Assembly (NCBI GenBank): GCA_026874595.1
Contig: CM049306.1
Coordinates: forward strand, 22,863,019 to 22,927,018
Source: Sipunculus nudus
Lineage: Eukaryota > Annelida > Sipuncula > Golfingiida > Sipunculidae
Direction: 5' to 3'
DNA: 64,000 bases
A model generated the notes under the pieces. That model was not told the DNA's origin, did not search any database, and saw nothing but the letters and a program-made list of their open reading frames with translations. The first letter of the stretch is position 1, and every line of letters starts with the position of its first letter. Position numbers and translations under genes: made by a program. This document shows positions 28,419-64,000 of this stretch, in pieces.

Positions 28419-28571
28419 GCCTGAATAATAAAGAATATTGTTTGAATGATTTGTCAGATGACCAGTACATTAACCAGTATTGACCAGTAAAAGCCAGTAA
28501 TAGCTGGCTAAAGCCGGCTATAGCCACCGGCCCGGACAACATGAGTAAAAGCTGGCTTTTCGCCAACCCTG

Positions 28572-29285
28572 GTAGAAAATTATAAATTCTTAGGATGTTT
28601 TATTGACAGAAATCTGAATTGTAAAGAACATGTGTTGAATCAATCCAAGAAAGCAAACAAAAGATTATATTACCTTTATTATCTAAGAAAGCTTAATATT
28701 GACAAAACCATAATTACCATGTTTTATAATTCAGTAATTTCCAGTGTCCTTACTCATTCACTGGAGTGCTGGTTAAAGAAAATATCTGATAAGTTAAAGA
28801 AACAGTTAAATAATACCAGGAAGAGAAGTTGTAGAATAACTAGTACTTCTCATGCCACACACCAGGAAATCAGTGAAACCAAAAGAATGGCCTTCATATC
28901 AAAGGTCATGAATGACACAACATCCCCTATATTCAGAGTTCCGTTTTTTACCTTCAGGTAAACGCCTAGATACAATATTCTGCAGAACAACTCGTTTTAA
29001 AAACATCTCTTGTACCATACAGTATTAAACTTTATAACTCGCAACCCTCTTAGATATTTAATGTTTTGAATTATGTGTTTTGTCTGCAGAATTATCTGTT
29101 TTATCATTTTTACATACTTAATTTTACATGCATAGTCAATATGTTATGTGTGATTTTATGTAAATTTATGTATTATTTTTTATGTATTTATCTATTTACT
29201 TATTTATTTTTATGTAATGAATTGCAAGTCAACGACAAATTCCTGGAACTGAAGGCTAATAAATGTTATCTTATCTTATTTTTTG
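28572..29285 (+). pseudogene. Broken LINE, 3' part and tail
   Basis: Resumes the reading of 22853-23758 after the hAT-like insertion: YKFLGCFIDRNLNCKEHV, then KKANKRLYYLYYLRKLNID and MFYNSVISSVLTHSLECW, as in Rex1/CR1-L2-type polymerase C-termini. Coding similarity fades after about 28960, where a frame shift near PSGKRLD is evident. The end TAATAAATGTTATCTTATCT near 29258-29278 looks like a LINE 3' tail with a short tandem repeat. Confidence 0.85.
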
Positions 29286-39094: not shown

Positions 39095-42000
39095 TTTGTT
39101 AATGTAAGACAACATGGGGGACAGTCCAGTTTCCCAAGTTTCACCTACTGAAGATGACCAGGAAATGGGTGACATTTCCAGCTTAGCACGCAAATTGGAC
39201 TCTGAGTTTGACAATGCTCAGCAACCTGAAACAAAGAATTATGATCCAAACAGTGACCATATGAAAGTATACCTTCGCATGCGACCATACACTGAAACAG
39301 AGAAAAAATTAGATGAAGACCAGGTAAGACATTGTATCATTTAGTTTAAAACAATTTTATTGGTGAATTTAGCTCCACATAAGTTCAAAAAAAGTTTCAG
39401 TTCAGGAGACCTAGTTGTGTGGTTTCACTTTGCATGTGTATAAGTGGACAGGTCTTGTTTTATTGGACATTTCATAAATATTACTAAATTGAACAGTATA
39501 ATGAAAATTACTGTGGTGTGCTACTTTCCTGTCACAGTCCAAAACTGAAATGGAATTCTGCAGATGTTTATATTCTGTAGTTAAAATTTGAGCATTGAAA
39601 AAATGGAGGCAGTAAGCCTGTAACCTCCATAAAAAGTACAAAAAATCTATTCCTGTGCAAAAACCCTGTAATCTGAATGGCTCAATAACAGATAATCCTC
39701 ACCTTATTGTAGTTTACTTTATATTTCAGGGGGTAATTTGGACAGGGTGTTACTTTACTTAAATAATCTAAAGAAACACAACAACTAAGAGACAGACGCA
39801 TTGGATCATAATCAACCAGTTTTATCTTTGATCTGTGGAAGGCAGAGTCACTCACTGCCTTATCATTAGCAAATTGCCCTGCAGCCACTCTTGATTGGCA
39901 GAAGTCATGGCCTAGCCAGTCAGGAGCATGCTCTGACTGAGATGGTAAAAAATAGAGGGAAGTTACACTGTTTACTGTCATTAATCTTTATTCATCAAAC
40001 AGGACCTGTCTATAATATTTATGGATGAAATGTCATTTGTAATGATTACTGTATTTGACGCATTGAGCGTCCCAGGTGCCCTCAAAATTGAATTTTTTAA
40101 ACTAGTTTATTGTGCCCCAAGATTTAAGGCTAAGATTTAACTTTTTTAGGATTCTGGGGAAATTTTAAAGTTAATAATTTAGGGGAAATTTCCTGTCCTT
40201 CTATTATTTAAGGGTTTTGGGCACCCTGACATAATAACACCCTATCAAAGTCACAAAGTGAGGTGGCAAAATAATGGTGACTGTTAGGACTGCCAAGTTT
40301 TTTTAAGGTGGGAGTGGCCCATCCTGTCTGTTTCCTCAAAGATATCTCTAAAAAAATTGATTGGGTATGCTCATAACAGCGGAGGTGCTTGTTACGTCAC
40401 ATACAGTATTTCAGAGTCTGTTTTGAATGTAATGTTGATATATCTTTGTTCTCTTTCAGGGTTGTTATGAGATCAACAGCTTACACACACTATCTGCACA
40501 TGCACCTAAAGAATCGCACACATACAAAACAAGCACACATGGCCTCTGCAAGAGCACCCACAAGTTCACCTTCTCACGCATATTCCCAGAGGAAACCTCG
40601 CAGAAAGAATTCTTTGATGAAACCATGCTTGGCACCGTTAAAGACTTCATCGATGGCCAGAACTGCTTGGTGTTCACCTATGGGGTCACAAACTCTGGCA
40701 AAACCTACACCATCCAAGGTAACATGCTTTACAAGTTTGAATATCAATATCTTTCACCCTTTGCTGCTCAGATGACAAATCAGGACCTCTTGAAATTATC
40801 AATTATAGTCTGTTCCATCCCCTTGTGTCAAACATGTTTTTGGCAAAGAAAAAAAATTATTAATTGTATTTTGAGTGAGAAAATGGTTATGTAATGTGGA
40901 AGATAGAAGGGCCTAATTTTCCACAGAGGAAATTTACACCAACCTTACACATAATTTAAGAAACAATTAATTTGAAATATGAGAAATCAGCCTTCATTTG
41001 ACAACATATCAGCCCCACTTATGGCAGTCAAAGTCATTGGTCACAAGCAAAAGCAGCCTCAATTGAAGGCTGCTGATTGGCTGATACAACTAGCTAAAAC
41101 AAAGATGGGACTTAACAGTCAGATCACTGGAAAAGTGTAAAAAAATTATGAAATGTATTTAAACTGAAAATTTATTTTAAAATTCTTGATTTCAATATTA
41201 GGCCTTCATTTCAATATGCAGCTTAAGGAAATTTGAAAAATAAAAACAATTGTGAAAATTACCTCTAAAAAACAGGTTAACACACATTAGTGGAACAGAG
41301 TATAGAACTCCCCCATTTTGATGATTTTCTGAAGTCAAACATTGTATATACTTTACATTGAAAAGTTTCATAAAATATAGCCTTATCTAGCTGTAAAAAA
41401 TGCTCATGGTTTGCACTCAGATGTATTAAGTATTAGAGCACCTGAGTTTTTTTCTTGAATGTACATAAAAAAATCTTAACTTTAGCAAAATGTTCTGTAT
41501 CTATACCAACACAATAAGGTGTCAATACATAGCACTGTCAAATGAACTTTCGGCACTTTTTTTTTTTTCTTTCAACTATGGACACTGAAAGTTTGTGATA
41601 CTGACCTGAGTAATATTTGTTAATTAGTCTGACTTATTACAAATGCTGTACTGCTATTGAAATGTACAGCCAAATTTATTATGTTGTTGAAATGTACTCA
41701 TTAGCTCTTGCAAGTTGAAGTGGAGTATGTGTACACATGAAAATGTGTGCAAGTATTTTCACTTGCCCCCCACCCTAAGATTAATTTATATCAGCACAGC
41801 GATATGATATAAGGTTCATCTTTTTTTTTGTTTAATTTTTTTCAGTTTAAATTTGAATTGACACCTATGAAATGGTATTTCAGGAAATCCTAAGGATGGT
41901 GGAATTTTGCCGAGAGCATTAGATGTGGTATTCAACAGTATTGAAGGTAAACATTGGGACGGGATGTCCATAAAGCCTGAGATGTACTGTGACGTACGGA

Positions 42001-45000
42001 GGCTGAGTACTCGACAAGAAGAAATTGAAATCAAAACCAAGGAGTGTGTACTTAAACTAGCTAATGATAATGTAAGTACATTTTGTATTTCCACCCACAT
42101 ACGTTTTTGTGTATTTGATGTCTCGGTGTAAGGCCAAAAAAATTAGGTCTGGTTCTCAGGCACTTTTTTTCAGAAATCAATGTGGGCGGGCGTTTTTTTT
42201 ATTTTTAATTCTTTTGTTTGTTTCGATAAAAATGTCAAATGATAAGGGAAAAGCATGATAAAGACAGATTTATTTTGCTAAACAAGTAAAAGCACTGCAT
42301 AACAAAGGAAATCTTATCAAAATTGTATGATTTTATCCTCTTGAAAGAAATGTCCGAGCGGCTGGAGCTCAACATTGGTAAGTTTCTATTGAAAATCGAA
42401 ATAAAATTTTTTGATGCGGGGGTTTAAAATTGATGCGGGCTGTGCCTGAGAACCATACCTTTTATTTTTTTTGGCCTCATATGGTTTGCTTAATATTTGA
42501 TTGTGTCAAATTTGTGATATTGGCCCTCCACATCTTCCTGTTATCCATTTACTCACAGCTACGTTTTTAGAGACCTTGCTTTATTGAGACGCTGTGACGT
42601 ACTGTAGTTCCCTTTTTGTTTGCAAAGGTTTCAAATTTGCGATATTCCCAGAAGAAAAAAAAGTCAAAAACAAAACCCTCGTGAATAAGAGGCCCTATCG
42701 TCGATGGGAAGTCGTAGAGCAAAATATTAATATATGATTAATAATGTTCTTGTATGTTACCCCATATCAAAGACTTGTAATAAATTATCTGCGGATAATG
42801 TTCAAGAATGTCAATTGGTCCAATGTTTCCCTGAGTCTTTGTTTAATTTTTTATATATTTATATAATATAATTCAAATTATAATGGATATACTCTATGTA
42901 GGACAAATTCCCAAAATGGAACCCTTGAAAACAATGATAATGTGAAAATGGCGTTAGTATAACCGTACGAACATGAAGCCAACTATAGTATATTACATGA
43001 ATAATGAATCAGGGAATTAAACCAATCAGATGACTCATACATATACATTTCCTCTGTAATATTGATCTCATGTTCTTGTTTGATCCAGATGTAGGGGCTG
43101 TAATTGTATCCCCAGACAAAGTCGGGGGATACTATGTTTTCATACCGGTCCCCCCGCCGCATATAAATCTTGTTGACGCGATAACTCAGAAATATTTCAC
43201 GGATCTTTACCAAACTTGGTATATGTATAGATATGGGTTAGAGGACGAAGACTATTTAAAATGAGGTCATGACCTTTACTAGGAGAGTGTCCTTGACCTT
43301 GAATAGGTCCAATTTTGGGGAAAATCACACAAATTCTTAAATATTTAAAGAAATCTTGCATGGATTGATCCCAAAATCAAGTTGATGGAAGATCATGGAT
43401 AGGGTTGTCATGTTCTAGAAACTGGTGGCGCCACCTATTATTCTTTACTTTTTTTCGTGCCGTTTAATACCCCCAAAATTGCTACTTGACAGTACTGTGA
43501 GCATTATAAGTCAAAAAATAATGGACAGATTTCTTTTATATTGTGCATATACATAGGTATGGGTTCAGAATGATGTTTATTTAAATGGGGTCATGACCTT
43601 TTCTATGAGTGGCCTTGACCTTTAATGTGTCCATATTTGGTGAAAATCACACACCTCTTATGATATCTCCAGTGTTGATAGCAATATGGATTTCAAACAT
43701 GACATATGTATGGCCCACCACTAAAGTAAGAACCCTATAGGTTCTAGAGTCATGAGGTCAAAGGTCAAGGTCACTGGACTCGCATCTTAAAAATACTGTG
43801 GATGCATTTTAAGCCAAACTTTCATCCCAGGTCTTCCATCATGAATATTTTGCTCACTTGCCAATAGTGGATGATCCATATCAATTTTGAGGTCAAAGGT
43901 CAAGGCCGCAGGAGCTATCTGTCAAAAAATTAGTTTCTGGATGATAATCCCTGCTTTTATTGATGTATTGATTTCAAACTTGACTTATATATGTCCCATT
44001 GAAAAAGCAAGACTCCAATTGATTTTGGGGTCATGAGGTCAAAGGTCAAGGTCACAGGACACATCATTTAAAAGATTGTGGATGTATTTTCAGCCAAACA
44101 TTTCATCTCAGACATTTCATCTTGCACATACAGTCCCCCTGCCAATAGAGGAAGACGCCTGTTAATTGTGAGGTCACAAGGTCAAAGATGAAGGTCACAG
44201 GAGCCATCTGTCCAAAAATTAGTTTCTGGATGATAATTCCTGCTTTTATTGATGTATGGATTTCAAACTTGACTTGTATATGACCCATTTGAAAAGCAAG
44301 ACCTGAATTGATTTTGGGGTCATGAGGTCAAAGGTCAAGGTCACAGGACACATCTTTAAAAAGATTGTGAATGCATTTTCTGCCAAACAATTCATCTCAG
44401 ACATTTCATCTTGCACATACAGTTCACCTGCCAAGAGTGGAAGACCCCTATCAATTTTGAGGTCACAAGGTCAAAAGAGAAGGTCACAGGAGCCATCAGT
44501 CCAAAAATTAGTTCCCGAGATGATAATTCAAGCTTGGATTAATATATAGATTTCAAACTTGACTTATATATGGCGCATAAATAAATCTAGACCTCTATTG
44601 ATTTATATATAAAAGTGGATGATCAATATCAATTTTGGGGTCACAAGGTCAAAGGTCAAGGCCACAGGAGCCATCTGTCAAAAAATTAATCCTGGATGAT
44701 TATTCCTGCTTTTATTGATGTATAGATTTCAAACTTGACTTATATATGTCCCATTGAAAAAGCAAGACCCCAATTGATTTTGGGATCATGAGGTCAAAGG
44801 TTAAGGTCACAGGACCAACATCTTCAAAACGATTGTGGATTGATAGATGGAAGAAACAATAATTGCTTGCCAAGTGTCAGTATATGCTGCTAAAAATGGG
44901 GGCCTATTCTTAAAGGGGGGGGGGGGGTCTTACTATGTCTAGGGATACTGGGGGTGCCAAGAAATGTCTAGTTTTGATTTTATGTTTTTGTAGGATCCAG

Positions 45001-48000
45001 ATGTAGGGGCTTTATTGGGACCAGATGCTGAAACTTCCAAATTTAACATAGATTCTTCAGGAACTATGTCTGAAGATTCCCTCATGCCTTCATCAGACAG
45101 ACATTCTACAAGTTCTGAAGTCAGTAAAACAGAGGACTGCAATGACAAAGGTTAGTTTTAATGGACATTGGCTTGTACAAGAACAGCAGTTCACCTGTAG
45201 TCTGGGGTGTTTATCTGCTGTAATCCCTTTTGTAGCTAATCAGAACTCAAAACTGAACTCAATTTGTTTAAATTTGTGCGTATAAGCAGGAGGGTCAAGA
45301 GTTTTATAAAAATTCTGTTTGATATAAGACCCAAAATGGTTTGGTTCTCAGGCATTTTTGCACCGGCCAGCTCATGTACTCAAGGGAAAATATGAAAATA
45401 AGATTTATTTAAACACTTTATAACAAAACAAAATTTTATCAAAATATTATTTTATTCTCTCCAGAGATGTCTAAGCCTCAGGAGCTCAAAATTGGTAAAT
45501 TTTGAGAAAATGATGCGCAGTGCCTGAGAAACCAACCTTTTTTTTTTCTTTTTTTTTTTATTTTTAGCATATAATATTGATAATTATCAACTTAAAAGGA
45601 ACCATCTATGTAGAGCTGTAGGTGTAGTTTGGACTAAGCTTTTGTGTTCAGTTGTTGCAGTCTCTTTCTGTGTATGATCTTTTCTTATGTAATTTCAAGA
45701 GGCTTACTTATTTCAAATACAACAGATTTGCATAATATAGCCTACTATAATAAGTTATTCTCTGTGGCATACTAGTAATACTTCTCTGTTTTAATTTTAA
45801 GTTGATGGTGATAATAATGAGGCAGAAACCCTTGACACCCGTGTCAGAGATGAGGGAGCTGTCAGTGTGGAGGACCAGGGTCCCATCAAGTTCTCAATAT
45901 GGGTATCATTTGTGGAAGTGTATAATGAACAGATCTTTGATTTGTTGGAACCATTGCCCAAAAAGAAGAAAGGCCGTCGCACTGTCCTCAGTTTGAGGGA
46001 GGACAAGAATGGATCACCATATGTCAAAGGTGATTTATCCTTAATCCCTGGCTCTGTGAGAAATATAAAAAAATATATGAAGGCAGTTGTGTTATTAACC
46101 TGTCTCACAGTCTGTCTTATCTGCTTGTTTGTATGTGTGCAAGATATCTAAGAATGTTATGGAATTATAAGGAACATTTTGTGGGGTAATGTAAAATTTA
46201 TTATTGTTTTAGTTGTTAAAATATCTTGCTGACAAGGAGGACCTGCAGTTAAGCTGTTGGAACCGCACATCCACCTGGGAAACTGTAGGTCTCCATCACT
46301 AGGGAGAAACATTTTTGTCTCCTGCTTCCCAGAACTGGGGAAATTAATTTGGGTTTGTCTGTGTGTCTGTCTGTCAGGTTTTCCTTTTTATGTGTGATAA
46401 CTAAAAAATATTATATGATTTCATTCAAATTTGGGTCCGTGATTGCTCTCATGCATACCTTGGTTGTGATTGGTTTTGAAGTGTCTGCCTAAAAATTTAT
46501 TTTCTCCAGCTCCAAAACAAAAATATTAAATTTTGTTCCTATTTCACAACCGAAATGATTACATGTGGAGACATCTTCAGGGCACCATGAAAACTTAATA
46601 CTGCCATCATGACGTGGAGATATCTTCAGGCACACATAAAAACTGAAACATATTTATCAGGTAAGCATGAAAGACAACAAGAGGCAGAAGCAGGGGACTT
46701 AAATTCCACAAATTTGTTTGTTTTGTTAAACATTGCATTTCATCATCAATATGTTACAGGAGAATGCATTCATTTTAAAAGGACCTTGCCTTGGTGTTGT
46801 CCTTAAGATAAATTACTCTGAACATCAAGCACTCAATAGATCAGTTAAATTAGTTTGTCAAGTCTGTATGGTTGTTTATCAGGTGTCAAGGAGATATGTG
46901 TCACCAGCGCTGATGAAGCCTACAAGGTCCTGACTGTCGGACAAAAGAATCTTCAGATGGCCTGTACTAAGATGAACCACAACTCCAGCCGCAGGTAAGT
47001 CTGAATCTGACCCAATCTTAAATCAAATGTAGTAGTTTTTCTTTTACAGCATTGCTTAAATATTAAGTTGAACATATTAAATTTCATTTAACATATCTTT
47101 TTGATGATTTATATGAAACAGTTATATGCTGTTCACTTGATGCTTCACACAATACATACATGATACAATGTCTTATTCATACCATGTTTACTGAACTAAT
47201 GTTGATTGCAGCAACACTTAAGGCATGTCAAACCAAAAACTGGTCAAAATGATTATTCTTGCATTAAAAATAAATATCAGGAAAAAAAAGAAAATTCAGA
47301 AATGTCACATACCTGAATTATCCAAATACTGCTTCATGAAATATGCTAAGATGGATGATATACCAATATTATGGCTGTCATGCCTTTTTTTTGGAATACC
47401 TGGAAAAATCCTGGAATGTTGATTGCTTCAAGGAATATCCTGGAATGAATCTTCCTGGAAACTCAGCTTTTGAGTGGCTTAAGTTCTTGAGCACTGAGCC
47501 TCTGCATTACACAACTGACTTGCTATGGGTTTATAACTGGAATCAGATTTTGGTTTTGAGTTCATCTTTGTAAAAAACATGGCAAGGGTGATTTGAGATA
47601 TTTGCCACAGGGAGAAATTGAGCAGAGTAGACACAAATCTTACCAATAAAGGATAAAAAGCTAATGTGGAGCAAGAATAAATGTTTAATTATAATAATAT
47701 GCATATTGAAGAAACAACAAATTCCACTTTGCAAGTTTTCTGTAGCCTGCTGTTTTCTCAATCTTTTGTTCATCTCTTGTCACATGCCTGTGTCCTTGAC
47801 CTTATTAATTTATTTACCTTCCCAGAGAACAAATTGTTCAAATGATTATTATCTTATGAATATTGGTTCCATGAACAACTGTATTGCAAACTTTAAAGTT
47901 ATAGCCCTATATATATATCGGACATATTGAAGCCACTTATTTCAAAGCATCTGATAAGCATAACTTAAAAAGTAAGATGTTTTGGAATAGAATTATAGTT

Positions 48001-51000
48001 TGTAGACATGGTTTGCAAACTTTGCATCAATCATCTAGTCTATGCAGTTTGGAATTTAGATGCACCTAATTGTAAGAGTCTTTGAATAAAGTGCATTATA
48101 TGTATCCCACGAAGCAAGCCCTGAATTCAGTCTAAAAAGTGCAAGTAATGTATAACTAGCAAACCATGTACATACTGTGTGGACTTCTAGAAAATCAAAA
48201 TTGTTATCTCAGTTAATACTTTAAAACTAGTTGGGCCACAGTGGGAACGAGTGGGAACCTTGCTATATAGATCTGTAAAGTATTGCCTAAGTATGTATTA
48301 TCTGCAATGTGGTTATTGCCACAACTGATTAAAACTTGTGTTTGCAGTCACTGTATCTTCAACATCAAGATGGTGAGAGTGGTGGACACACACAACCCTC
48401 ACATGGCTCGTGTCAGCATGTAAGTATCAAATCATCAGGTGTCAAAATGAATACCTAGTGTATGCTTAAATGAATGCCCTTGACTGGTTGGAGTCCAATT
48501 ACTGAGCAAGTGCTCCGTGCAGTTGTTATTGTCAACAAGTATGGGAGAATCTTCCCTTTGAGTTTTGCTATAAAAATGCTTTCAACTATGATGATGTACC
48601 ATTAATATCCTTAATTCTCAGAAGAATTAATTGGTCTGAAAGAGGTTTCATGTCATGAGGAGAGCCTTCATCTTATGAAAATGCATTATTTGCTAACATA
48701 CAAAGATAATCTATTTATAACTAGGATCAATATCTTTATGTTGTTTGAATCATATGAATCAAAGGATATAATGGAAATAGGGGGGGGGGGCATAAAGCCA
48801 AAATTTTATAATTATCTGTAGTACAAATGATAAAAGACCATTTTCTGTTGCACTCTAGTATTGACACACACTGTTGATGTGATTTTTCCATCAGTTTGTA
48901 TATCCGTATGTGTTCCATTTGCAGGCTTTCTCTGTGTGACCTCGCTGGTTCTGAGCGTTACACTAAGACACAGAGTCAGGGTGACCGTATCAAAGAGGCA
49001 GGAAATATCAACACATCTCTTCTAACTCTTGGGAAGTGTATCAAGGAGCTGAGACATAACCAGCACAATAAGTAAGGCCTGATGGTATCTGTTCTTTGAG
49101 ATTTTAAGTGGTGTAATTTGTAAAGATAAAAACATATTTATACACTAAAATTTTGATTGTTCCACAGAATAGTTGCACCCATTTTGGGGGATTTGTAAAT
49201 TAACACTAAATTCCTTAAAATGTTGCTAAACAGTCTCTTGCCTTGATCAACCTTTCAGAAAATTCATGTTATGATATACTTATTATCATGGGGAATGGAC
49301 TAAACATTATTTTGTTCATATGCCCCATTTCAATAACTGAAGCACATTTTTTGTATCATTCCTTCAAGTAGGCTAAATTCCATGTATAAGCTGGTCATGT
49401 AGCAGTGCGTGTTAGAAGCATTTTGTGATTAACATCGGATGAATAGTGTGATTATCAGCCTGTTGTTCCTTTGACCCAGCTTATGCTCATTTTTTTTTGT
49501 TTATCTACACTGGTAAATGTACATTTGTTAGTGTTCATGATATCACATTGCTCTCTGTTTACAGTAGTTTGATGTAATGTGTTTAGTAAATGGTAATTTT
49601 AGAGTTTTTTTTTTAACAGCCTATTTTACAATCTTTAACATGAATTATAAACAAAAGTAATATCCTTTTATATATAGGAGATTTATATGTTTAGAAAAGT
49701 AAGGGTTATATAATGAAAGGTGGTGTTTTTTTTATAGTCACTTTGTCTCTTAAGTTGACTGTATTGGCTCAGATTTTGATGATCAACCATAACGTTATGC
49801 ATGGTTTTGGTGACATTGCCAAGAAGACATTGCATTTGTACTGTACAAGATATATTTGAGCATTTTTTATCAATGCATGTCAAATATATTGGTTATCAAA
49901 CTGTATCAGCCTTATCTTTTATATAATTATATAATTCTCCTTATTATAGAATAATAAAATTTTGGAAATAATAAGTAAAATAAGCCTTAAAAAAACTCTT
50001 AAAATGCACATTAACCAAGTTTTAAAACTTTGTCTGTTTTATAGAGACCATCAGAGGATTGTTCCGTTCAGAGAAAGCAAGTTGACAAGGTTATTCCAGA
50101 ATTTCCTCTGTGGCAAGGGAAAAGCCTCCATGATTGTTAACATAAACATGTGTGCCAGCAATTTTGATGAGACACTTTATGCTCTGAAATATTCAGCTGT
50201 GGCTAAACAGGTGAGCGATTGCATGTGTTTTTATCTGTAAGCTTAGCCTGTTAGGGGCTGAAGGTCCCTGGATCAAACCCTGCAAGTGCTTTGTGCAAAA
50301 CAGTGAAATAAATTTGTCAGGATGGGTAATTACTTTTGGATTATTACCAGCCAACAAACTTGTCAAGGACTAACTCTTCTTGGGTAAAACATAAATATAA
50401 ATTTAAAACACAAATGTTACTTTTTATTAATTTTTTTTTTTTAAACTGGATTCAGCTTTTATACTGGACATTAACCATAGGTCAGTTTTCTATCACAGAA
50501 TGATTGATTTATTATCCCTTTTTTTTTGGCTTCATAATGATCAAACACAGTTAGGCATAAATATTGGTATTTCATGATGATTATGTGATGATGATCTGTC
50601 ATTTCATAATCAAGCAAGGGATCAACTTCCTGTGTAATATACATGTGAAATATTTTCTGTGAACAGTAAAGACTATAGAAAGAATAAGAGTGCACCTTAA
50701 AAAAGTAATTCAGTGATGGCTCATTCTTCTTGTCATGGGCTTGTAAAGAAATTTGTGTCAGCACAGCCCACAGGTGCAGTAGTCCTGGTTAACACCACTA
50801 TATAAAATGAGAGGGAGCATGTGATACTGCCCTGTCACGTAATCCCAAACAGGAATGGAATTCTGTAGATGTTCAGCTAGTATTATAAAAAGGAGGTGGC
50901 TACCTCCAACAATAAAAAAACTAATATGCTGTACAGTAAAATCATTTTTTCCTTATTTCCAGGTTATTGTTGTCCAAGCTCCTCCCCCTCCACCTGTTGA

Positions 51001-54000
51001 GAACAAGAAACACAAGAAATCCCGAGCAGTATCGTTGGCCCTGGCACCAACTCCTAAAGGTGCTGTAAGGCCATCTATCAGCTGGGCAACACCAAGTAAG
51101 TACCTTGTTATACTTGATGAATATGATCTTCTTTCATGCTGCACATAGATTGTGAGAGCTGATTAAGATTGTCTGCAGTTGAAGATATGTCTTTTTTGGG
51201 GGGATTTGATCAAGGCAATACAGTATACTTATACATTGTTAAATGGCTACTCAGCACAGTTATTCAGATAAATTTTACAGACCCATGTCACAGAAAAATT
51301 TCAATTTTTTATTGATAAACCCTGTTACTAATAATCCCTGATAGATTTTTAAATTTTTATCATCTGTCATTCTAAACTGGCTGATGTTATATCCCAAAAG
51401 TCTGGCTGTTAAAATATCCCAAAAGTCAGCACTTGAGCTGTGTTTCTATATATTTGTATATCTGCATCCATAGTCTTTAGTGCACAAAAAATCGCAAGCC
51501 TATTTAAGCATAACCTGTTCCCCTGTGTACATATGTCAGTACTGTGCATGCACATCCACTAAACGCACCACATTCAAACTGTTTTGAGAAAAATTCAGGC
51601 ATTTTCAAGATGTAAAAATTAACCATATTTCCCAGCATAGCCCAAGGACAGGTCACCTGTGGTTGTCAATCAGAAAATCTTACAAACTTACAGAAACCAA
51701 TCATGCAGATTTGCACATACATGGAGACATAGGCATAGTGTTCCATAATTAATACTTAGTGTTTAATGCTTAATTCTAATACCTAAACACAAGCTTAATA
51801 CAGTAAAACCCCATTGTGTCGAAATCGTTTCAGTCGAATATCCTGCTTATGTTGAAGTTACTTGATTCTCTAAGTTACAACTCTAATTAAATTATTACCA
51901 AATAAAACCAGCTTGTGTCGAACCTCGGATGTGTTGAAATTTTCTGAGGGTCCCTTCAACTTCGACACAAAAAGATTTCACTGTTAACTAAACTGCCCAA
52001 CAGCAGGCGGGTCTGATGAGATGACACTGATGTTTCAGGGACTATGGCTCAGTTGGCAGAAATTGAAAGTGAGGCAGCGGGTGTTCCTCTGCCCATTGAT
52101 GAGGAGGAGGATGAATTAGATACCACACTCGGAGCTTCCCGAGAACAGGTAAGTTATTATGTTATATTCTTCCCTCTGCTTTTTCATATCAGGACATCAG
52201 ACATTCTTGTTCATTGATAAATGGTACCATTTGTGAGGGTTATAAACATCATTTAAGGTCATTAATAAATATTAGTATTTTACATATTTATTATTTTTTG
52301 TTTCTCTGTGATGGATTGTCAATAAATTAATCAATACATTGTGTAAAAAGGTAAATACACATATGCAGGGTAATTTCACATAGGTACAAACATACAAATA
52401 TCAGAATTAAATGTAAGTTGTATTGTAATTTTGAAGTTAAACATCTTTTCATTAAAGACTACACATTATACAGGGAGAGATCTTTTTATAATGAAGTCCT
52501 ATGATGATTCTATCCTTGCTCACTCAGTGTCGTGACTGTGCTTACAGTCGGGGCGTGTAGACAAAATGGCCGCTCTACCGAGGGTCGTGTAGACTATCGG
52601 TAGAACCTGAGGACTTAACATGACAAATTATATCAGTTAAAAAGGAAGAACGTAATACCTATTTAATGATATATATAATGTCTGTGCACTTTTTGTACAG
52701 GAACTTCAAGAAATGATCCAAACTCTTGGTGATATGTTGAAAGAAGAAAAACGTAAGAATGTCACCATGGAATCACGTATACGTGAGGAAGTTTGTAAAG
52801 AGATGTCTCAACATATTGTGGAGATCGAGAAAACTTACAAGTGAGTCCTTTGCCAGGTGTCATTTATGTTATAGTGAAACTGTAAGTTTACCCGTATAAT
52901 GTTTAATTAAAACTGAAAAACTGATAACAGGTATCTTGAATCTCATGATTTAAATGTTAAAATGTATGTTTAAAGTGCTTACATTTTCAGAAATCTTGCA
53001 CCTTCACAAAATTTGAGCCATTCCTTTTTCCATCAATGTCAGATAAGTTGTTCCTTAGGAAAGACTTATTAAATCAGATTTAACAGCCTTTTCATCCTTC
53101 ATGTTCATGCCATGTTCTGTCTGAATGCTAGTAACAAGAGGTGTAGGTGTATCTCATTGGGTATGTATATATATCATTACTTATCAAAAGCTGTGAAATT
53201 GGGAATATGAAGTTTATGTATTTCAGAAGTCCTGAAATTAAAGAAAAACGTCAAAATTCAGGACAAAGTTATGAAATTTGGTTCCACACGTTGGCTAACA
53301 GTAGGTCATCCCTTGACTGAGCCATAATACTGCACCTCGTTGTTTCCCGACACTAATTAAATTTTGTGAGACAGCCCCCACTACCCACAATGCCTTGCCC
53401 TGCCTGGCAACTGGGTTAGTGTACACTACCATTCAATTTACTCTGTGTCGCCGACCAAGCCGGTCACGTCTCAAACGTGTGGCCACAGGCTGGTTCTGCT
53501 GTCTTGGTTCAGCGCCAGTGTGACAATTTTTTCTTCAGACGTCTCATTAGACAAAAGAATTAAATTCAAAGGCTGGCTCACACATAAGGTGTTCTGGTGC
53601 ACTCTCCCAAAATCGTCTTGATGTGTCCCAGTGTCACTACAATGTATTCTGGTGTCACCCCAATTCTAAAAATTTTGAACATGTTCAACAAAGTCTCTAT
53701 GTCTCCCTGATCTCTCAGTCCCTGAATGCGATGTCACCCCTGTGTATAACCCCCAGTATTAAGCTTATGTGTTAGACCTGTCTTTGCTATAAATCGTGTA
53801 TGCATTCACCCTGACAAAATAAAATTTATTTTTAAAAAATATGTAAGTTAGCTTATATATTGTCATGAGGTCTTGGTTTTAACAATTATTAAGGACCCCT
53901 AAAATTATTAAATATTAATCCTCAAGGAGTGCATGATTCCTCTCACATTTGCCCAGTCTTGCTGTCTTTGTATGATATATTCTGTGTATTAGCCCTATCA

Positions 54001-57000
54001 TTTAGAAAATCCTCTCATTAATTAGTGATATGATCGAGGAGGAGAGAGAGCGGGCAGGAAGATGGGCAGATGCTCGCGTGGAAATGTACATGAGGTCCGT
54101 GAAAAAGAAGTCCACCAAGCGTAAAAAGCGAGAGGATGACGAGGAGGAAGAGGAAATGGTTCCACTGTCCCAGCACAACGCTCAGCTGGCCAGACTGCAG
54201 GTATTGACACTTACATACTATCTTAAATCTTGTTCCTTTGGTCTTAGACAAATGATATAAAATGAGATGTACGAAAGTAGCCTCATAGTGACCCTATTAA
54301 TGCATTCATATTTTACCTCATGCAATGTTTAATAGCTTGTTTCTTATGGTCCTGTGCATCATGATGCAGTTTGAATTAAGGGTGAAATGGATAGCAGATT
54401 TAGGATATGCCCTCATGTATCCAGTGAGTAAACATGGAGAAAATATACATAAAAGGATTTCTTATTTACTTTGTATTGCAATATTTTGTTGAAAATAGCA
54501 TGAAACATGAAAGGTCTGGAATAAGGGTCCTGTAGTTCTCTGCAAGTTTTGATGCTACTCATTGTTGTTATTGATCTTTTATGGTACACGTGAAAATGTG
54601 AAGATCATAATCTTGAAGGTAAAATTAAGAACTATTGTTATATGATTACCCTCATGTGCAGGTATTCGCTTTCTATAGGACAAGTTCCTAATTATATTTC
54701 TAGTCATTTGGTGGTATAAAATTTTCCCTTATGATGTAGGGTCAGTGAAAAAGCCTGCAGGGTGACTCTCTTTAAGACAACTTTCAGTCTTTGTAGCTAA
54801 AATCTGAAATAAAGCCTAATTTCCTTGGTATCATTAATTTTAAAAGCGCAAGAAAAATGGAATTTCTGTATCTCCCCTTTCTTAATATTTTTGCGTGGAT
54901 GTGATGAAGTCAAAATCAACTTGACTCAATAGCTTTGTGACCTTCCTCATGAATATTTATTGGATTGTAAGTTGTATGTTCTTGGTATATTGTAACGTAA
55001 TGCAATTAAAAGTTCTGGTGTTGACAACAACCGTTTATTAGCGGAACGAGAACACAACGGGAGCATATGGGGGTGTTTCACCAGCCCCTAAAAGAGAGTG
55101 TATAAGGGGCATGTGTCAAGATTGCTAAACAAAATCAAACGTGCAGAGATACTGATATAAAACTAACATGGTCTGTCTAGTACACGACAGTAAGGCACAA
55201 ACTGTACAAGCACATATGGTCCATTTCTTTGTTTTAGGATCAGGCTGGCCAGATTGCTGATCTCCAGGATTCTTTAGATAACACTAAAGAAGAAATTAAG
55301 CAACTGCAAGACGCACTCAAAGCTGCCATATCTGAAAGAGAGGCTGCCCAAGGCCAGCTGTCTCAGCTGAAATTTGAAGTCGCTAATCTAAAAGAAGCTA
55401 CAGAGAAGTCAGACTCAAAGGTAATGAGTTTCCCCTCATTTAATATGAGAAAACCTGATGCTGATTCTTTCTCAAGTTTAATGTGAATGAATTTGATGTC
55501 AGTAATTGATCACGAGACACGCATTCAGGATTATTAAACACAGTTTTATTCAACCGTTAAGTTAGGTATATATCCAGAGAAATACAAAGAGCACTCTAGA
55601 TATATGTAACTATATCTTTACTATTTAACATATTCAGGTTGTATTTGCTGAGAAATCACAGAAAATGGTTCACAATTCAATAGTAATATCTTAACTAAAT
55701 TGGAAATGCCTTGATGAAGCTTGGGTATTTTTAAAGCATAAGTTATAAGCATAAGAATAGCTGAATGATTTAGACTTTTTACATTTTTTTGTGTTTGGCT
55801 GTTGCAGGCCCTTAACAAGTCTCTGTGTGAACTGTCACAGTCTGAGATTGTGAGGTCACTCACACAGCAGATAAGTCAACTCAAACAAGAACTGGAGGGA
55901 AAGGTAGGCAGTGAAGAGAATTTTCTTGATTTTTTTTTATATATTTACCAAGAGCTTATTTTATTTAAAACTATCTTCTAACAACTGGCCCACTTCCTCT
56001 GTTGAATGTTTTTTTTTTTTTCTAACACAGAAACCCCTCATTGTGTAGAGTTTAAAGTTATCGTCACTGAATTGTGTACCTCCAGTGTATCAGGTGCTAA
56101 GTATATTTTCAAGTACTAAACCACAAACAAGGTTTATATTTTTTACTTTATGGCAGAATTGCATTCATTAAATTAAACTTCATAAAAACACTTATGACAC
56201 GTTTTCTGTATGGGCCATGGAGCTGGCAGTTTTATGATTAGATTTAACGATTCGATTCGGGTTTTGGGATACTTTAGTTTGTTAAATTAATGCTAGATTT
56301 CATACTGAAGCAGGCTATGGAGAGTTTTTTGTTTGTTTGATGTTATGCTTCAGTTTGAATGTTTCAATGACCACCTGATTCATAACCTTTCAGATATTTA
56401 AGTAATTAGTAACCATTTGTTCTAATCTGTTTCAGATTGCTGAGAATGGCGAGCTGAATGAGATGCTAACAGAAGCCGGGGAAACATTCCAGGCCAAGGA
56501 AGCTCGAATCCGTACACTCGAGGCGCAAGTGGCAGCCGGGACACCTAAAAAAGGTAGGACTCCTACCTTCGCTCGTCTTACAGCCAACTCCAGTGGTTTT
56601 GCATCTGACTTCAGTGACTGTGTCAGTGTACACAGACGGACCATTGGGGTACAGACTATTGAGTCCATTAAAGACTTTGCTAAAGCATGCAATAAAGGGG
56701 GCGCCCTTACCATGTTCGATTCTAGTAGAGCGTCTAACCATGTGGACATCCCCTGTACTCTGAAACCGCTAAAAGAAGTACAGCTACCGGATGAAGAAGA
56801 CAATTACCATGGCAATGCATCAGTGGTTGTTGACTTGTCCTCCTGTGTTAATGAAAACATGGCATCTCAGATGCAGTCCTTCAGCTTGAGTCACTTCCAG
56901 CCTGCAGCTTCGTCAACAATGGCCAACTGTTTAGAGGAAGAGCCCACGCTGGTGAAAAGAGCAAGTATATGCAAGAAAAAATATGGCGAAACACGCAAAC

Positions 57001-60000
57001 ACACTGCCAACGAAGAACAGGAACCAGATAGGCATAGGAGGCAGCAGAAATCAAGTTTAGATGATAAAAAACAAACTGGGGCTGCATGCAGCAAATCCAT
57101 GCTGTCAAATGCTGCAAGGGGCTCAGGCATGTTGGCAAAGCATACCCACACCAGTAGAATGAGACTCATGCATGCAGTGTCCCCGTCTGCTAATCCTGCA
57201 AAACGCGCAAAAACTGACAGGGATTCTGGAAAATCTATCATGAACAAAATGAGCAATGCTCTGCGCAGAGCAGTCGCTGGTAAAAAAGGCCAGACGAAGG
57301 AAGAAAAGAGAAGGTCATCAGTCGGAGTCAGAACAAGGGCAAGGACAAAAAAGCGATAGACTGGTCTTATTTTTCTCAGAGTGATTAGATGCCATGGTCT
57401 TGTTTAGGATATTTCGTTCAAGCCAATATCGGGTATGAGAGCTCATCACTTGATTTGTAATGTTGTCTTATATCTCACTGTAACGATTAGTAACATCCCT
57501 ATGTAATATACATAAGTACCTGTTCTTTCCTTGTCAGACAACATGAGCCTTAGAGTTTATTTAAATCCAAGGCTGTGTCCTAATGCAATGGGGCCTGTTA
57601 TGACAAGTTTTGAGTTGCAGGTAGCAGCATTTGTATATTTTAAAGTTTTACCATTCATGGTGATAAATCTATAGAAAAATTTAATGTTTGTACCATATAT
57701 GTGAATACATTAATAATGGTAATGAAAACACCTGCGGCCGGTATCAGTTTACCCCCTGAATATTTATTCCTATTAATGTAATTCAATTCCAATAAATAGT
57801 TTTTCCTTCTGTTTCAGAATTGACCCCTTATTTAACATTCTTCATTATCACAGGCTTAATGAGTTTGTGTTCAGAAGCTATTACCTGCTTATTAAGATCC
57901 TGCAATCTGTAAAGGTCCTCTGTCAGACTCTAAATGTTAAAGTAAAATTATAAGGCCTGGAGCTGTTTACTTAACATTTTCAACATTTAACCCTTGCACT
58001 GGAGGGAGCCTGTTTCTCCTTCCATTCATATAATATTGCATATTTATGAGACATCCCTGAGACATAACTGATACTTTTTACCATGTTTTAAGTATGTGAA
58101 AAAGAATTATATGGAAAAAAATTGATACTTTGAACCATGCTTTAAGTATATGTAAAAGATTTATACTGTGCTTCTCTCTCTCTTCAAACCATTCCAGTTT
58201 GTGGCCACAGAGTGATGGAAAAAATAGTTATTTTAGTCTTTAAGTGGAGAATAACCAGATCCATTAACTGCTGTTTATAAAATAAAAATGAACCATTTAA
58301 AATGTCTTTCATGTTACGTTAAACTGTGGTATTTGGGACCAGTTATATATGAGATTTACAAGTTCCAGTATTTTTGTGTGATATTATTTAAAACTGCTTT
58401 GATCTGTTTTATGGAAAACCATGTAAAAGAAATTATCAAACAGATCTCACAAGGCCTGTTAAAGGTCATTACTCAGGGGCTTTTTCTGGATTAGTTATTC
58501 AGGAGTATACCTTTCTCTTTCAAATTAAATTGAGTTAGAATTTACAATCAACATTGTTTTCATACGATTTCAAATATATTTATCAAATGATGGTTGGAAA
58601 GAGCTTTTTCATTTAAATACAATGCACCGTTAAGCTCTTTGTGTTTTAATTCTTGATTAATAAAAGGGTCTCAGGAAAATATGCTCTTGTTAATACATAA
58701 GTCATGTTGGACTTCCACTCTGGTGTCACTCCATTGACATATTACATTAAGGCTGTTTCATTATAGCTGATGTTCCTGACTGCAGATAGGCTGGAACAAG
58801 TTACCCTCAAACTAAGGCAGTGTCCGTGAGTCTGTGTTGTTATATTTCGTTTAAAGCTGATGGCACATCGGCCCATGCACACTGGTGTGTTGTCAGTTAT
58901 TTGACAATATTTTCAATATGTAACAACATCGAGCTATTATGGACGCCCTGCTCTTGGTTCAAGGGCGACTTATTCTGGGCAGCCTGGCCGTAGGAGGAAC
59001 ATGGCTACGATTAAATAGCTTTAATATCATCATAGGTCAATGGTGCAGGAACAGAGTCAGTAAGAGTACAATTTACTTATTATTTAATAAGAGTAAGGAA
59101 AATGTGATCGCAAATGATTGATAGCAAGACGCACATCATAACAGTTAATAAAGTACTGATGAATGTGTAGATCTATAAAGAATGTATGATGTGTATAGTT
59201 TGGTATGGTGTGTAAATATTTTATATTGTATATACATCTGTGCTTTGTACATAGTAAATCAGTAATATTGCATAATGTGTTCATAATCTTTTCCATATAA
59301 TGCGTGTATGGTTATAGAATTATCATTTTGATTTCAGTTGTATTTTCCCCACAATCCATTCACATTTATTAACAGTATGTGAAATAGTTATTTCATTTGA
59401 ACTAAATATATATGTAAATGGAAGATTTAATGATTAAATTGAAATGTTCAATAATTAAATTGAAACTTATGAATTCAATTATAATTTGGTGCTTTAATAA
59501 GAGTATTTTTATTGTTTACCTCATGAAGAGTAATTATATTGGTTCAGTACACTGCTTGGCTCACCTGAGCTCTGTAACATTTAAATGTGCAATGATCATT
59601 TCTCTGTCATCAGTATTTGTAATGGTTGTACTTGGTTTATCATTGTAGAAATAATAGGTTTTATTGCCTATTGTTTATGGCTTTACATTAAAGCTATCAA
59701 GGAATAATATCTCAGGCCACCCAAAAATAGGAAATTATTGTCCAAAGAAATGACCACTCCTTTATTTATAAAGTTTTACCTCTGAATCAAACATTCACAT
59801 GTTTTTGGTGTTGATAAAAAAACATTTGACTTTAGCAGATATTATTGACTGGTATTATTATTGCATGGATATTGAATTTTTTTTTTATAATCAGTGAAAC
59901 CTCAAAATCAATTCCAGCATGAATTGCCATGCTCCAGTGAAAATAAATGTGGGATGTGTTAGTTCAAATGGTGGCTTGTATGTCCTGCATCAGTTTGAGT

Positions 60001-63000
60001 GTTGTAAAATGTGTGACACTGCAGGATGTTGTTTTTCTGTCATATGATACAGAAACATTCATATAATTTTAAAATTTTATGAAATACAATGCAGTAGCAT
60101 TAGGTGATACATCTCAGTATATATATCACAGTTTATATCACTGAATTAAGATAAATTTTGATGTATCAAAATATTAAATTATTTCTTTGATGCTTGTTTC
60201 CACGTCTAGCGTATCTGAAGGTTTTTCAGTAATATTTTTAAACCAAAGCCCCCCCCCCCCCCCCCCATATCTCAAAACTCTGCAAACTTGGTCTCCATAT
60301 TGAATTCATTTCAGCCATATTACTGTCAATACTGTATACAGTGGTTGATTTCAAATTCACAGGGTTCAAAATTTTGTAATTTTCGCGTTTTCTGTGTCTT
60401 TCAAGGGATCTGTTTTCACTATTTCACCATACAAAAGACCTGCTCAAAGTATAACCATTTACATTTTATGAATTTAATAATAAAATAAAATATTTCATAT
60501 GCACAAAATTTTAATAATTGCACGCGGGAACCCAAGAAACATTGACAACTGGAATTGTTCATTAATGGCAGATAAGTTGACACAGAATTGATATAATTTA
60601 TAATTGCAATCCTTGAACATGCATGATTTATTATCATTCATAATATATATTTTTTTACCAAGTTTCAACATGCCTTCAATGATGCACCAATTCCCCTTTC
60701 ACAAATATCACAAATTTGAAACCCAAGTGAACAAAAAGGCAACCACCGTATACACTTGATTTTTTTTAAAAAGGTAGCTTGGTTTACTTCAGTGATGAAA
60801 ACATGACATTGTTAATAAGTTACAGATTACATAAACATGAAATACAAAAACTACTATTCAGTACACCAGGTGTATCACTCTACTCTACCATGAAGTTTGT
60901 GTGCTTCTGATTGATATAATGGTCTCAGTCAGGAGTCATGTTTAGTCTGCTGAAGGAGTCTCTTCTGCAAGTTGCGACAAGTCAGGTATATCTTAAAGAT
61001 AAGTTTGATAAGTCAGGAGTATCACTGGTGTCTTGGAGAAGTTTCGTTCAGTCAGAAGTGAAAAGAGTTATTGGCAATCCATGATCATACTATGTCATTT
61101 GGACCAGGCAATAGTTGGGTACCGTATAATAAGTAAAATGACTGGAGACTTGGGGAGTCACTGAGACTAGTCATTATGACTTGAGTCTGGGGAGTGTCTC
61201 TGACAGGTCATCATGACTCAAGTCTTGTGAGGCTTTGAAACAAGTCATAATGACTCACTGATGTGTAAATGTTAATGGTTGTGTCATTTAATACTTCATA
61301 CATTTTATGAAATTTTGTAAAATAAATATTTATTAACTTAAATAATATGTTTCTGCTTTACTTTTGTCATCTGTTCAGGGTACATTTTCTGGTATACATG
61401 AGTTTACAGTGAAAGCTTGATGAACAGACATCAGATATCTATGTAATTTATTAGCCTCTGAAGTTAATCTTTGGTATTGGCTTTAACAATTAACTTTAAC
61501 ATTAAGAAGTTATTTTTACTCACTTGAGGCAAAGTTGAAGACCTTTAGGGATGAAGTACTCCTTTGTAAAATGCAAGGAAATCTCTTTTAGGTAACTACA
61601 ATTTTGTTAACAATTCAGTGAATATCTTTTTCATTGTCACACACTGCCTGGTTGTGATTTAATCTTGTCAACGTGTGTACAATTATGTAACAGTAAAACT
61701 AGGCAAACAAGTGTTGGTTTGCAATACTAAGAAGATCCTGCCTAATGAAGTTTGGAGACTGGAGGAAGATAATGCAAAATGGATGGTTCTGCCATTGAAG
61801 AGAAATATACTTTATGTCCCATTTCCCTTCAGAAATCCTTACTTCTTTTAAAACATCAGTCACTGAAGTCAGATCTTGCATCATACAAAGTTAAATATTT
61901 ATGTGTGCATTTAATCAGATAAATCTAAGGGAATTTAGTGTTTTAACCATTTAAAAATTTTTCAGATTTAAATTAAAGTAGGTTTGCAATGTTTAAGTTT
62001 TAAAGCAATAGTCCTAAACAATATTTCCATGTTATCACCTTACATCAATGTAATTGTTTCACAGGGGACTGGAATGGCAAAAATATGAGCCATATCTGCA
62101 AATACAAACATTGAGCCTTCAGGTTCCATGTAATTTCAGTCATTTGATTTTTTAGGCAAGAGAGGAAAAGTGACCATGGCCATTTATAGCATATTTCATA
62201 AATATATACTCGTATTTTTATTAATAAATTAATATTTATACAAAAAGGCATGTGGTTTTGACCCCCCTTCCCTGATTATAGTCCTTCCTTGTGAGACTAC
62301 CTACTAGGTCAGTTATCCTGTCTGTATAGAATGAACTATAATGAGAAATGTGTGAGCTGCATATCCATTGTGAATGAATGCATGATTGTATGTGTGTGCA
62401 AGACAGGTATTTTACTGTGCAAAATATTGTACTGTTCAATCAAGCACAAAATTTAATGGCAGCAGTGACCGTGGTCTATAATGTCCAGGTAAAGGCAGTG
62501 TAAGTTAGAGCACCTTGTTTTATGCAAGGTAAAGCTTGAAAGTATGGTAAAATTCAGTGAGTAGGGTGTGGTAAATCCTTTAATCCTTTTTTATGATTCA
62601 TTGGGTAACACGGACATCCTTTTGTTAGGTTTTATTGTCATGTAATCCATAATTGTCTACAATAATTGAGTGCTTGAATTTGAAAGAAAAATTACCCACT
62701 TTTAAATTAAATAGTATGTGATGATCCTCCCATCGAACAAAATTTGTAATATTAAAGAAAATGGTAATAGTACAGGGTTACTGCAACCCCAAAGTTTAGG
62801 CAACTAGATGGATGATTACCCCTGCAGGGAAATTAAAAGTTCCCCAGAGGGAGAGAGAGGAGTAATCTCCTGAACACTCATATCAGCCAATGCCTTCTCC
62901 CACACCCCAGAAAACAGACATTTTAAGCCTTCGGTGGAAATCCTGTGGCATTAGTAGTATTTTTATTTTTACTTTTGTTATTATTAATATTATTATTATT

Positions 63001-64000
63001 ATAATAATCCTAACATAATAATTTATTAAATGGTTTTCTATATCTTCCTTTATAGACAGTGCCATCTACAGTCCATAGACTTTAAAGATTTAACAGGAAT
63101 AGATTAATTTCAAGCTCTGGATGTGAAGGTTTGAGGATGCTACCCCTGCAAGACTTCACTGCAGTGAATAGAGTAAGCATGTGTACTCATGTCTTTACAG
63201 GTTCAGACCAGACACTGGAGGATGTGACTCGACAGTTAGGTCAGGTGATCAGTAAGCTCGCTGATACAGAGGAGCAGCTGGATAGTAAGACCAGCGAGAC
63301 TGAAACTCTGAAGAAAAAGCTTGAGGAAGCTTCCAAAGCTGTTCAGGATCTGCAGGACATGAGTAAGGAGAACAAATCACTGAGCAAGAAGTTGATGGCT
63401 GTGGAGTCAGAGCTTTCAGCTTTGAAGTCTGGATTCAAAGAGAGAGAAGCTGAACTTGGCAAGATGAAACTAAAACAGAAAGATGAACAAGAGCTGCAGG
63501 AGCAGATAGCCCAGCTAACTGCAGATAATACGAAACTTAATACACAGCTCAGGAAAGCAAATGAAAGTCTTACAGTAGTGGAAGCCAAGAACAAGAAATT
63601 AGAAGAATCTGTCAAGGAGCATTCAACTGTCCTCTCTGACAATGAGATCTTTATTGCAGAACTTAACAAACAAGTCAGGACATTAAAAGCAGAATTGGAG
63701 GTAAAACACAAGGAAATTGAAGAAGATCCTGCTGAAGCTGATATGGACATCATCAGGTCAAGTCCAGAAATGAAGAAAATTGCAGATACAGGGGTTGACA
63801 ATAGAGACAATGTTGAAGGCTCTATAAAGGCACTCACTGACCAGCTTGAAGGTTTGCAAGAAATTCTAGAACGCAAAAGTAAGGACCTGAGCAAGGAATC
63901 CAGAAGATCATGTGAGCTTGAGCTGAAGATCAACGGCTTGGAGGAGTCTTTGAAACAGGCCAATGAAGAAATCAGGAAGAGGGCAGGTGAGGTTTCCAAG
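39095..64000 (+). CDS. KIF20: Kinesin-6 motor protein (KIF20, KIF20B-like), 3' end beyond window
   Basis: Coding exons: 39114-39323, 40460-40718, 41884-42071, 44994-45150, 45802-46029, 46883-46994, 48348-48419, 48925-49071, 50045-50210, 50963-51095, 52039-52148, 52701-52840, 54026-54200, 55238-55420, 55808-55903, 56436-56553, and 63201 to at least 63986. All junctions are GT-AG with matching phases. The start is ATG 39114 after an in-frame TAA (39105). Motor domain, residues about 51-513: P-loop GVTNSGKT (145-152), switch I NHNSSRSH (379-386), switch II DLAGSE (414-419), then [17 protein letters not shown] in place of GQTGSGKT, and a long loop-6 insertion (about 175-300), mark kinesin-6. The neck has VRPSISW, as in KIF20B, then coiled coil. 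Kinesin-6 proteins bundle midzone microtubules in cytokinesis. Switch-II surroundings ([20 protein letters not shown]) favour KIF20B over KIF20A, but the gene may predate that split. Confidence 0.95.
39102..39107 (+). promoter_or_regulatory. Start-stop uORF (ATG TAA) just before the KIF20 start
   Basis: In the 5' UTR part of the first coding exon, ATG at 39102-39104 is followed at once by TAA 39105-39107, in frame with and 12 bases before the main ATG at 39114. It fixes the main start and could reduce initiation. Confidence 0.6.
42131..42477. mobile_element. MITE copy 1 in KIF20 intron 3
   Basis: The ends AGGCCAAAAAAATTAGGTCT...GGTTCTCAGGCAC and GTGCCTGAGAACCATACCTT...TTTTGGCCT are inverted. 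The middle holds a TCCGAGCGGCTGGAGCTCAA block shared, in altered form, with the copy at 45328. Confidence 0.8.
43062..44993. repeat. Tandem repeat insertion in KIF20 intron 3 with nuclear-receptor-like motifs
   Basis: About five units carry GATTTCAAACTTGACTTATA (near 43690, 43972, 44259, 44548, 44726; spacing about 285, last about 180) and GAGGTCAAAGGTCAAGGTCA. The segment opens with GTATCCCCAGACAAAGTCGG at about 43108 and includes one GGTGGCGCCACCT at 43425. It is bounded by two copies of GATCCAGATGTAGGGGCT, at about 43084-43102 and 44994-45011, the second being the start of KIF20 exon 4. Confidence 0.85.
45328..45560. mobile_element. MITE copy 2 in KIF20 intron 4
   Basis: GGTTTGGTTCTCAGGCA at the left and TGCCTGAGAAACCAACC at the right are inverted and match the ends of 42131-42477. 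The internal CTAAGCCTCAGGAGCTCAAA matches the copy-1 block. It is shorter and lacks the GGCC terminal bases. Confidence 0.75.
51799..51985. mobile_element. Mariner-like MITE in KIF20 intron 10
   Basis: The left end TACAGTAAAACCCCATTGTG and right end (reverse complement) ACAGTGAAATCTTTTTGTGT are inverted, with TTAATA and TTAACT outside. GTGTCGAA words repeat inside. No ORF. Confidence 0.65.
56554..57359 (+). CDS. KIF20: Alternative terminal exon of KIF20 (short isoform tail, 268 codons)
   Basis: At 56553 there is a usable donor (AAAAAAG|GTAGGA), yet the frame stays open beyond it for 268 codons to TAG 57357-57359. Read through, the exon 56436-57359 ends a 1099-residue protein. The tail (residues 832-1099) begins [16 protein letters not shown], has no coiled coil, is Ser-rich and becomes basic, with [34 protein letters not shown] and [10 protein letters not shown] at the end, which look like nuclear-localisation or microtubule-binding stretches. 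AATAAA signals follow at 57791, 58281 and 58659. Splicing at 56553 instead joins 63201 in frame. Both products are inferred from sequence; no transcript was seen. Confidence 0.75.
57791..57796 (+). terminator. Candidate polyadenylation signal for the short KIF20 isoform
   Basis: First AATAAA after the stop at 57359, followed by a T-rich stretch (GTTTTTCCTTCTGTTT). Further AATAAA copies at 58281 and 58659 are alternatives. Confidence 0.5.
57797..63200. other. Intron to the long-isoform exon, no gene seen
   Basis: AT-rich DNA. A poly-C run lies at 60250-60266. Bases 60930-61260 repeat AGTCAGGAGT and ATGACTCAAGTCT-like words as a decayed minisatellite. ORFs here are 60-76 codons with no recognisable domain. 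AATAAA at 61321 is isolated. Confidence 0.45.
63201..64000 (+). CDS. KIF20: KIF20 long-isoform coiled-coil exon (open at window end)
   Basis: Acceptor GTCTTTACAG ends at 63200. Phase 1 joins AAA G|GT with exon 16. At least 266 codons of heptad-rich Glu/Lys/Leu sequence follow (for example [19 protein letters not shown], then [17 protein letters not shown]), ending at the window edge without a stop. A donor-like CAG|GTGAGG at 63986/63987 could end the exon. The long C-terminal coiled coil is a KIF20B trait. The 218-codon minus-strand ORF over the same bases is its antisense shadow. Confidence 0.85.

Follow-up and report, generated by a model that had tools for sequence, protein, structure and literature searches.

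KIF20A/MKLP2 of vertebrates and Subito of Drosophila consist of a kinesin-6 motor, a coiled coil of moderate length and a C-terminal tail, and KIF20B/MPP1 consists of a motor, a very long coiled coil and a basic tail. A long insert within the motor domain is a trait of the kinesin-6 family. In the parts of two papers available to us, KIF20B is termed vertebrate-specific (PMC9581516) and is described as not present in invertebrate genomes (PMC9603694). For human MKLP2, the available part of PMC7337490 places the passenger-complex site in the coil and lists phosphorylation sites, of which three lie close to the C-terminus. Here we analyzed a stretch of 64,000 nucleotides (G000:C1:22863019-22927018, hereafter the window), on the plus strand of which one KIF20-type kinesin-6 gene probably carries a composite terminal exon that provides two alternative C-termini. 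The sequence was covered from position 40001 of the window on, and open frames were covered over the whole window. The contig was also traced 29 kb beyond the window end, and the first 800 bases of this extension were identical to the last 800 of the window.

Splice sites were scored with a generic matrix over 93.2 kb of the plus strand, which contains 5068 GT and 5335 AG sites. The first coding exon was placed at 39114-39323, with an ATG at 39114, a donor score of 7.1 and a stop-free, in-frame join to the next exon; the gene model covers coding exons. The motor is encoded by exons 2-5 (40460-40718, 41884-42071, 44994-45150 and 45802-46029) and exons 6-10 (46883-46994, 48348-48419, 48925-49071, 50045-50210 and 50963-51095), which were placed by their splice sites and form one open frame. 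Exons 11-15 (52039-52148, 52701-52840, 54026-54200, 55238-55420 and 55808-55903), placed in the same way, encode the neck and a coiled coil; here and below, coiled coils were judged by eye. Exon 16 spans 56436-56553, and its modelled start (acceptor score 2.6) is the one given by an earlier, first-pass annotation of the window. When joined, exons 1-16 were free of stops from the ATG to 56553. The motor matched the Pfam family Kinesin (PF00225) with an expectation value (E) of 1.3e-93. In PDB, three KIF20A sequences were the best matches (E 1.6e-114 to 3.7e-114) and the next match was at 1.3e-60, which bore out the KIF20 identity given by the first-pass annotation. Between motor exons 41884-42071 and 45802-46029 the model contains some 80 amino acids that, as read from the sequence, are acidic and rich in Ser, a candidate for the kinesin-6 insert. 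Judged by its motor matches, the gene is a KIF20-type kinesin-6. In the intron between the motor exons from 42071 to 44994, dispersed GGTCAAAGGTCAAGGTCACAGG-like repeat units were seen by eye at about 43700-44850.

With the donor at 56553 in use, exon 16 is internal; otherwise it forms the 5' part of a terminal exon. Both readings are in frame, with 832 residues in common. The donor, AAG/GTAGGA after 56553, scored 4.5 bits and ranked 40th among the 5068 GT sites, and the acceptor before 63201 scored 5.15 and ranked 32nd among the 5335 AG sites. Splicing would join TPKK to GSDQTL (TPKK-GSDQTL), in agreement with the in-frame junction of the first-pass annotation, and would remove intron 16 (56554-63200, 6,647 nt). 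This intron is the largest of the 35 modelled introns, 2.3 times the next (2,922 nt), with a median of 926 nt. Without splicing at 56553, the open frame of exon 16 extends as far as 57359, as the first-pass annotation had seen. The extension (56554-57359) runs for 267 codons past the split Gly codon, given earlier as 268, to a TAG at 57357-57359, and the predicted short form has 1,099 amino acids.

By its codons and composition, the 267-codon extension is coding-like and not the outcome of chance. A run of 268 stop-free codons would be expected with a probability of 2.7e-6 at the first-order composition of the tail itself, in line with the few per million estimated earlier, and of 4e-9 at intron composition. 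With a coding score trained on the shared kinesin exons only, the extension reached 0.255 bits per codon in the kinesin frame, compared to 0.072 and 0.076 in the other plus frames and -0.204 to 0.008 in the minus frames. The best of six frames in 441 other segments of 801 nt, a few of which overlap real coding sequence such as a basic helix-loop-helix (bHLH) gene, averaged -0.206 with a standard deviation of 0.123 and a maximum of 0.227. The score held up to the stop, with 0.45 bits per codon in the last sub-window. With the amino acids fixed, synonymous choice gave a log-likelihood ratio of +10.0, compared to -40.8 ± 12.0 under intron composition, and none of 2000 simulations reached +10.0. 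The G+C content was 0.468 in the tail, compared to 0.320 in 57360-58700 and 0.331 in 58701-63190. It is highly improbable that the open frame is a matter of chance or the shadow of an antisense frame and makes no protein: minus-strand open frames do reach 170 amino acids at the locus, but the coding signal peaks in the kinesin frame, the minus frames stay near or below zero, and the synonymous test gave 0 of 2000.

The short tail is basic, with an isoelectric point (pI) of 10.0, and reading its sequence suggests two features, a PAKRAKTD stretch resembling a nuclear signal and, starting at residue 1055, a segment that is amphipathic and carries positive charge. It had a single match in the 1.43 Gb genome, and a mobile element was rejected as its source on that single match. 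A copy of the tail or coil of the long form was also rejected: the best local match between the short tail and the long form had an E of 0.001 when neither masking nor composition correction was applied, and the longer matches, at 17-25% identity in charged stretches, were judged compositional.

Exon 17, the first that only the long form contains, starts at 63201, runs as an open, coiled-coil frame to the window end at 64000 and is modelled on to extended coordinate 65302. After nineteen further modelled exons on the plus strand, the frame ends with a stop codon at extended coordinate 87249. Our first exon chain skipped weak splice sites and gave 2,399 amino acids; laxer limits gave 2,661 with an identical C-terminus, although some small exons of the laxer model, such as 79190-79217 and 80227-80246, are doubtful. 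The long form so modelled at 2,661 amino acids has the motor, the neck, a very long coiled coil and a basic tail ending ...HAIVTRRLRSRKN. The very long coil after the motor, a KIF20B feature, is made up of open frames of 706 and 324 amino acids that look coil-like, plus further coil-like exons. Since the last 244 amino acids have a pI of 10.46 (first model), both forms have basic ends, and the earlier contrast between a basic tail and a long coiled coil does not hold.

The end of the long form was compared with the sequence that we take to be the human KIF20B C-terminus. An RKRKSNE motif and an RRLR near the very end are common to both. The last 20 residues scored 36, compared to 16.0 ± 3.55 for shuffled sequences, and 2 of 5000 shuffles did as well. 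The global score, from a start at a hand-picked shared motif, was 88 compared to 32.8 ± 11.4, with 0 of 2000. The short tail was no closer to the same presumed human end than shuffled sequences (477 of 1000 as good overall, 1007 of 5000 for the last 20 residues and 227 of 2000 for the last 140 compared globally). The presumed human end agrees with three peptides in the available part of PMC6709729, and its numbering is at most one residue off at the two places compared. Together with the architecture, the C-terminus of the long form supported a KIF20B-type assignment for this predicted protein.

The gap of 5.8 kb between the stop at 57359 and 63201, which contains candidate polyadenylation [poly(A)] signals, and the ATG codons within the 63201 exon would suit two neighbouring genes, one of KIF20A type with its end at 57359 and another, for a coiled coil, that starts at about 63201 and is not spliced to the first. 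However, the donor and acceptor rank 40th of 5068 and 32nd of 5335 in 93 kb and join in frame, and the C-terminus of the downstream protein is like the presumed human KIF20B end; we take human KIF20B to be a single protein of motor, coil and tail. We regard two separate genes as quite improbable. A retrocopy that could serve as a natural cDNA record was looked for and not found: the tail and the 63201 exon, the latter compared over its first 700 bases, each had a single match in the genome.

The anatomy of the sequence is that of a composite terminal exon, with read-through of a donor to an in-frame stop and a candidate poly(A) signal within the intron. The first AATAAA after the short stop lies at 57791-57796 and is followed by a U-rich stretch, and further candidates lie at 58281 and 58659, all on the plus strand; that AATAAA signals follow the frame had been seen in the first-pass annotation. 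For a gene with two alternative C-termini, the switch is most likely intronic polyadenylation that competes with removal of the largest intron. Use of the donor at 56553 would take out the 6.6 kb intron and join exon 63201 onward, and the product would be KIF20B-like with about 2,661 amino acids. If U1 fails to commit the donor before the polymerase passes the intronic poly(A) signal, cleavage would follow at the candidate at 57791, 58281 or 58659. In the cleaved pre-mRNA, exon 16 would be read through to 57359, giving 1,099 amino acids with a KIF20A-like architecture of motor, neck, short coil and a different basic tail. Both proteins would share the motor and presumably central-spindle work, and would differ in reach and in the partners bound by their tails. 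We only infer this competition between U1 and cleavage, because the donor is middling and the poly(A) signals are no commoner than chance.

Several observations weigh against one gene with two ends. The donor at 56553 is middling and not weak, as 19 of the 35 donors of the gene score lower than its 4.5 bits. The nine AATAAA in 57360-63200 are not clearly more than the 6.2 ± 2.3 expected, and ATTAAA was likewise without clear enrichment there (11, compared to 6.9 ± 2.7 expected). The short tail had no match above the cut-off in Pfam, NCBIfam or PDB, with one Pfam line at E 0.19 and 11.8 bits for a cut-off of 35, and scans of viral and prokaryote collections for its relatives gave 1 and 27 pattern matches, none confirmed, as expected. 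Against the 35 amino acids that we take to be the human KIF20A end, the tail scored 23 with a shuffle mean of 24.3, and 649 of 1000 shuffles were as good. Comparisons of the long-form end with the presumed human KIF20B were also uneven: a middle block was equalled by 408 of 5000 shuffles and the local score over 190 amino acids by 69 of 1000, a poorer result than that for a piece of plain coil (26 of 1000), so that local scores are untrustworthy here. We infer the existence of both mRNAs, and use of the short form, from sequence, and this too was counted against the reading.

Such a basis for the short form, together with poly(A) signals no commoner than chance and a tail that has no above-cut-off match in the libraries searched, would suit an extension that was a terminal exon in the past or is one only at times. 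Formerly coding or weakly so, it would now arise only as a by-product of intron retention at a low level, and the long form would be the functional protein. A decaying frame, however, would soon acquire stops, and 267 codons are open here; moreover, the codon choice is that of the gene's own exons and the coding score is undiminished near the stop (0.45 bits per codon). We consider such a relic unlikely and keep one gene with two ends as the probable arrangement. The sequence observation of the first-pass annotation was confirmed, and its interpretation, a KIF20A-like short and a KIF20B-like long protein, was partly supported: the two in-frame ends and the KIF20B-like long form stand, and the short form is KIF20A-like in architecture and size but not in its tail, which is unlike the presumed human KIF20A end.

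The motor had 24 matches in the genome, nine of them from this gene, two from a KIF23/MKLP1-type gene at G000:C4:93.60-93.61 Mb and 13 elsewhere. Further exons of the C4 gene were found by tblastn, and its KIF23 label rests on neck motifs that we take to be diagnostic. Since this gene is present, the earlier description of a single kinesin-6 gene fails. Of the 13 other matches, the eight weaker ones apart, five at four loci were examined and assigned to other kinesin families; by labels that we presume, the four loci are KIF18/19-type (C2), KIF17/KIF3-type (C14, two pieces), kinesin-14 (C11) and KIF3-type (C8). No second KIF20-type gene was recognised among the motor matches read (16 of 24), in a search that ran exon by exon and that a fast-evolving copy could escape. 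By sequence comparison, one KIF20-type and one KIF23-type gene were found in the genome.

Other features were noted in the window and the assembly. Upstream of the kinesin gene, a bHLH frame lies at 14919-15611 on the plus strand (PF00010, E 1.7e-13). Three plus-strand segments, 22772-23329, 27311-27727 and 28545-28961, are probable remnants of retrotransposons without long terminal repeats (non-LTR), with RVT_1 and zf-RVT below and ALKBH8_N above the cut-off; ALKBH8_N is common in non-LTR retrotransposons. Elsewhere, nine near-equal COX1 matches were obtained on C60, C61, C62, C66, C72, C74, C75 and C89 (two copies). The one that was read (L008) is a bacterial aa3-type oxidase, and C123 carries a bacterial cbb3-type oxidase; these contigs appear to be symbiont or contaminant. 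An animal-type mitochondrial COX1 fragment at G000:C5:67852325-67852477, in a 93 Mb contig, is probably a nuclear copy. A match to the CEP55 EABR family (PF12180, 28.4 bits, cut-off 25, genome E 0.0026) was found at G000:C1:41141420-41141491 (L016), in a minus-strand frame at 1351-1572. The surrounding frame is one that we take to be CEP55-like. CEP55, like KIF20B, is described as not present in invertebrate genomes in the available part of PMC9603694.

Because the long form is KIF20B-like, it contradicts the vertebrate-specific view of KIF20B if the genome is invertebrate; in what is apparently an invertebrate genome, the predicted protein argues against that view. An ApeC domain, which is not known from vertebrates, was found in the genome and suggests an invertebrate, perhaps a mollusc; the C1-set Ig and haemocyanin beta-sandwich families gave no hits, in scans that lacked a positive control. 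Since one cell-division motor gene can be read to a short basic tail or spliced to a long coiled-coil form, it may do the work of both vertebrate KIF20A and KIF20B. It is possible, though doubtful, that the ancestral bilaterian KIF20 already made KIF20A-like and KIF20B-like proteins through alternative terminal exons and that vertebrates later came to encode the two products separately. If this were true, KIF20B would be an old animal protein and not a vertebrate invention. A two-ended gene at this locus would also be a clean case of alternative 3' ends standing in for duplicated genes, and its switch, between the donor at 56553 and an intronic poly(A) site, can be tested directly. No KIF20 gene with two ends was described in the titles or abstract openings of the literature searched, which lay mostly outside subscription journals; part of that search was dominated by papers without KIF20B and argues only weakly for absence.

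Compared with KIF20A/MKLP2, the predicted short form has the same layout and, at 1,099 amino acids, exceeds human MKLP2 at 890 (available part of PMC7337490). The shared coil did not match the human MKLP2 coil fragment given there, and it had no KIF20A match in PDB by sequence. The short form differs from KIF20A/MKLP2 in that its gene provides a second, alternative end, and in its 267-amino-acid tail, unlike the presumed human end. The long form agrees with KIF20B/MPP1 in layout but differs in that it is modelled at about 2,661 amino acids, compared to 1,820 for what we take to be the human protein, and that its motor exons are shared with the short form. The mechanism proposed resembles that of the CstF-77 intron 3 site, where, in the available part of PMC3708835, a poly(A) site in a very large intron leads to a short mRNA. 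The CstF-77 donor is weak and its short mRNA has no apparent protein, whereas here the donor is middling and the short mRNA would carry a coding tail of 267 amino acids.

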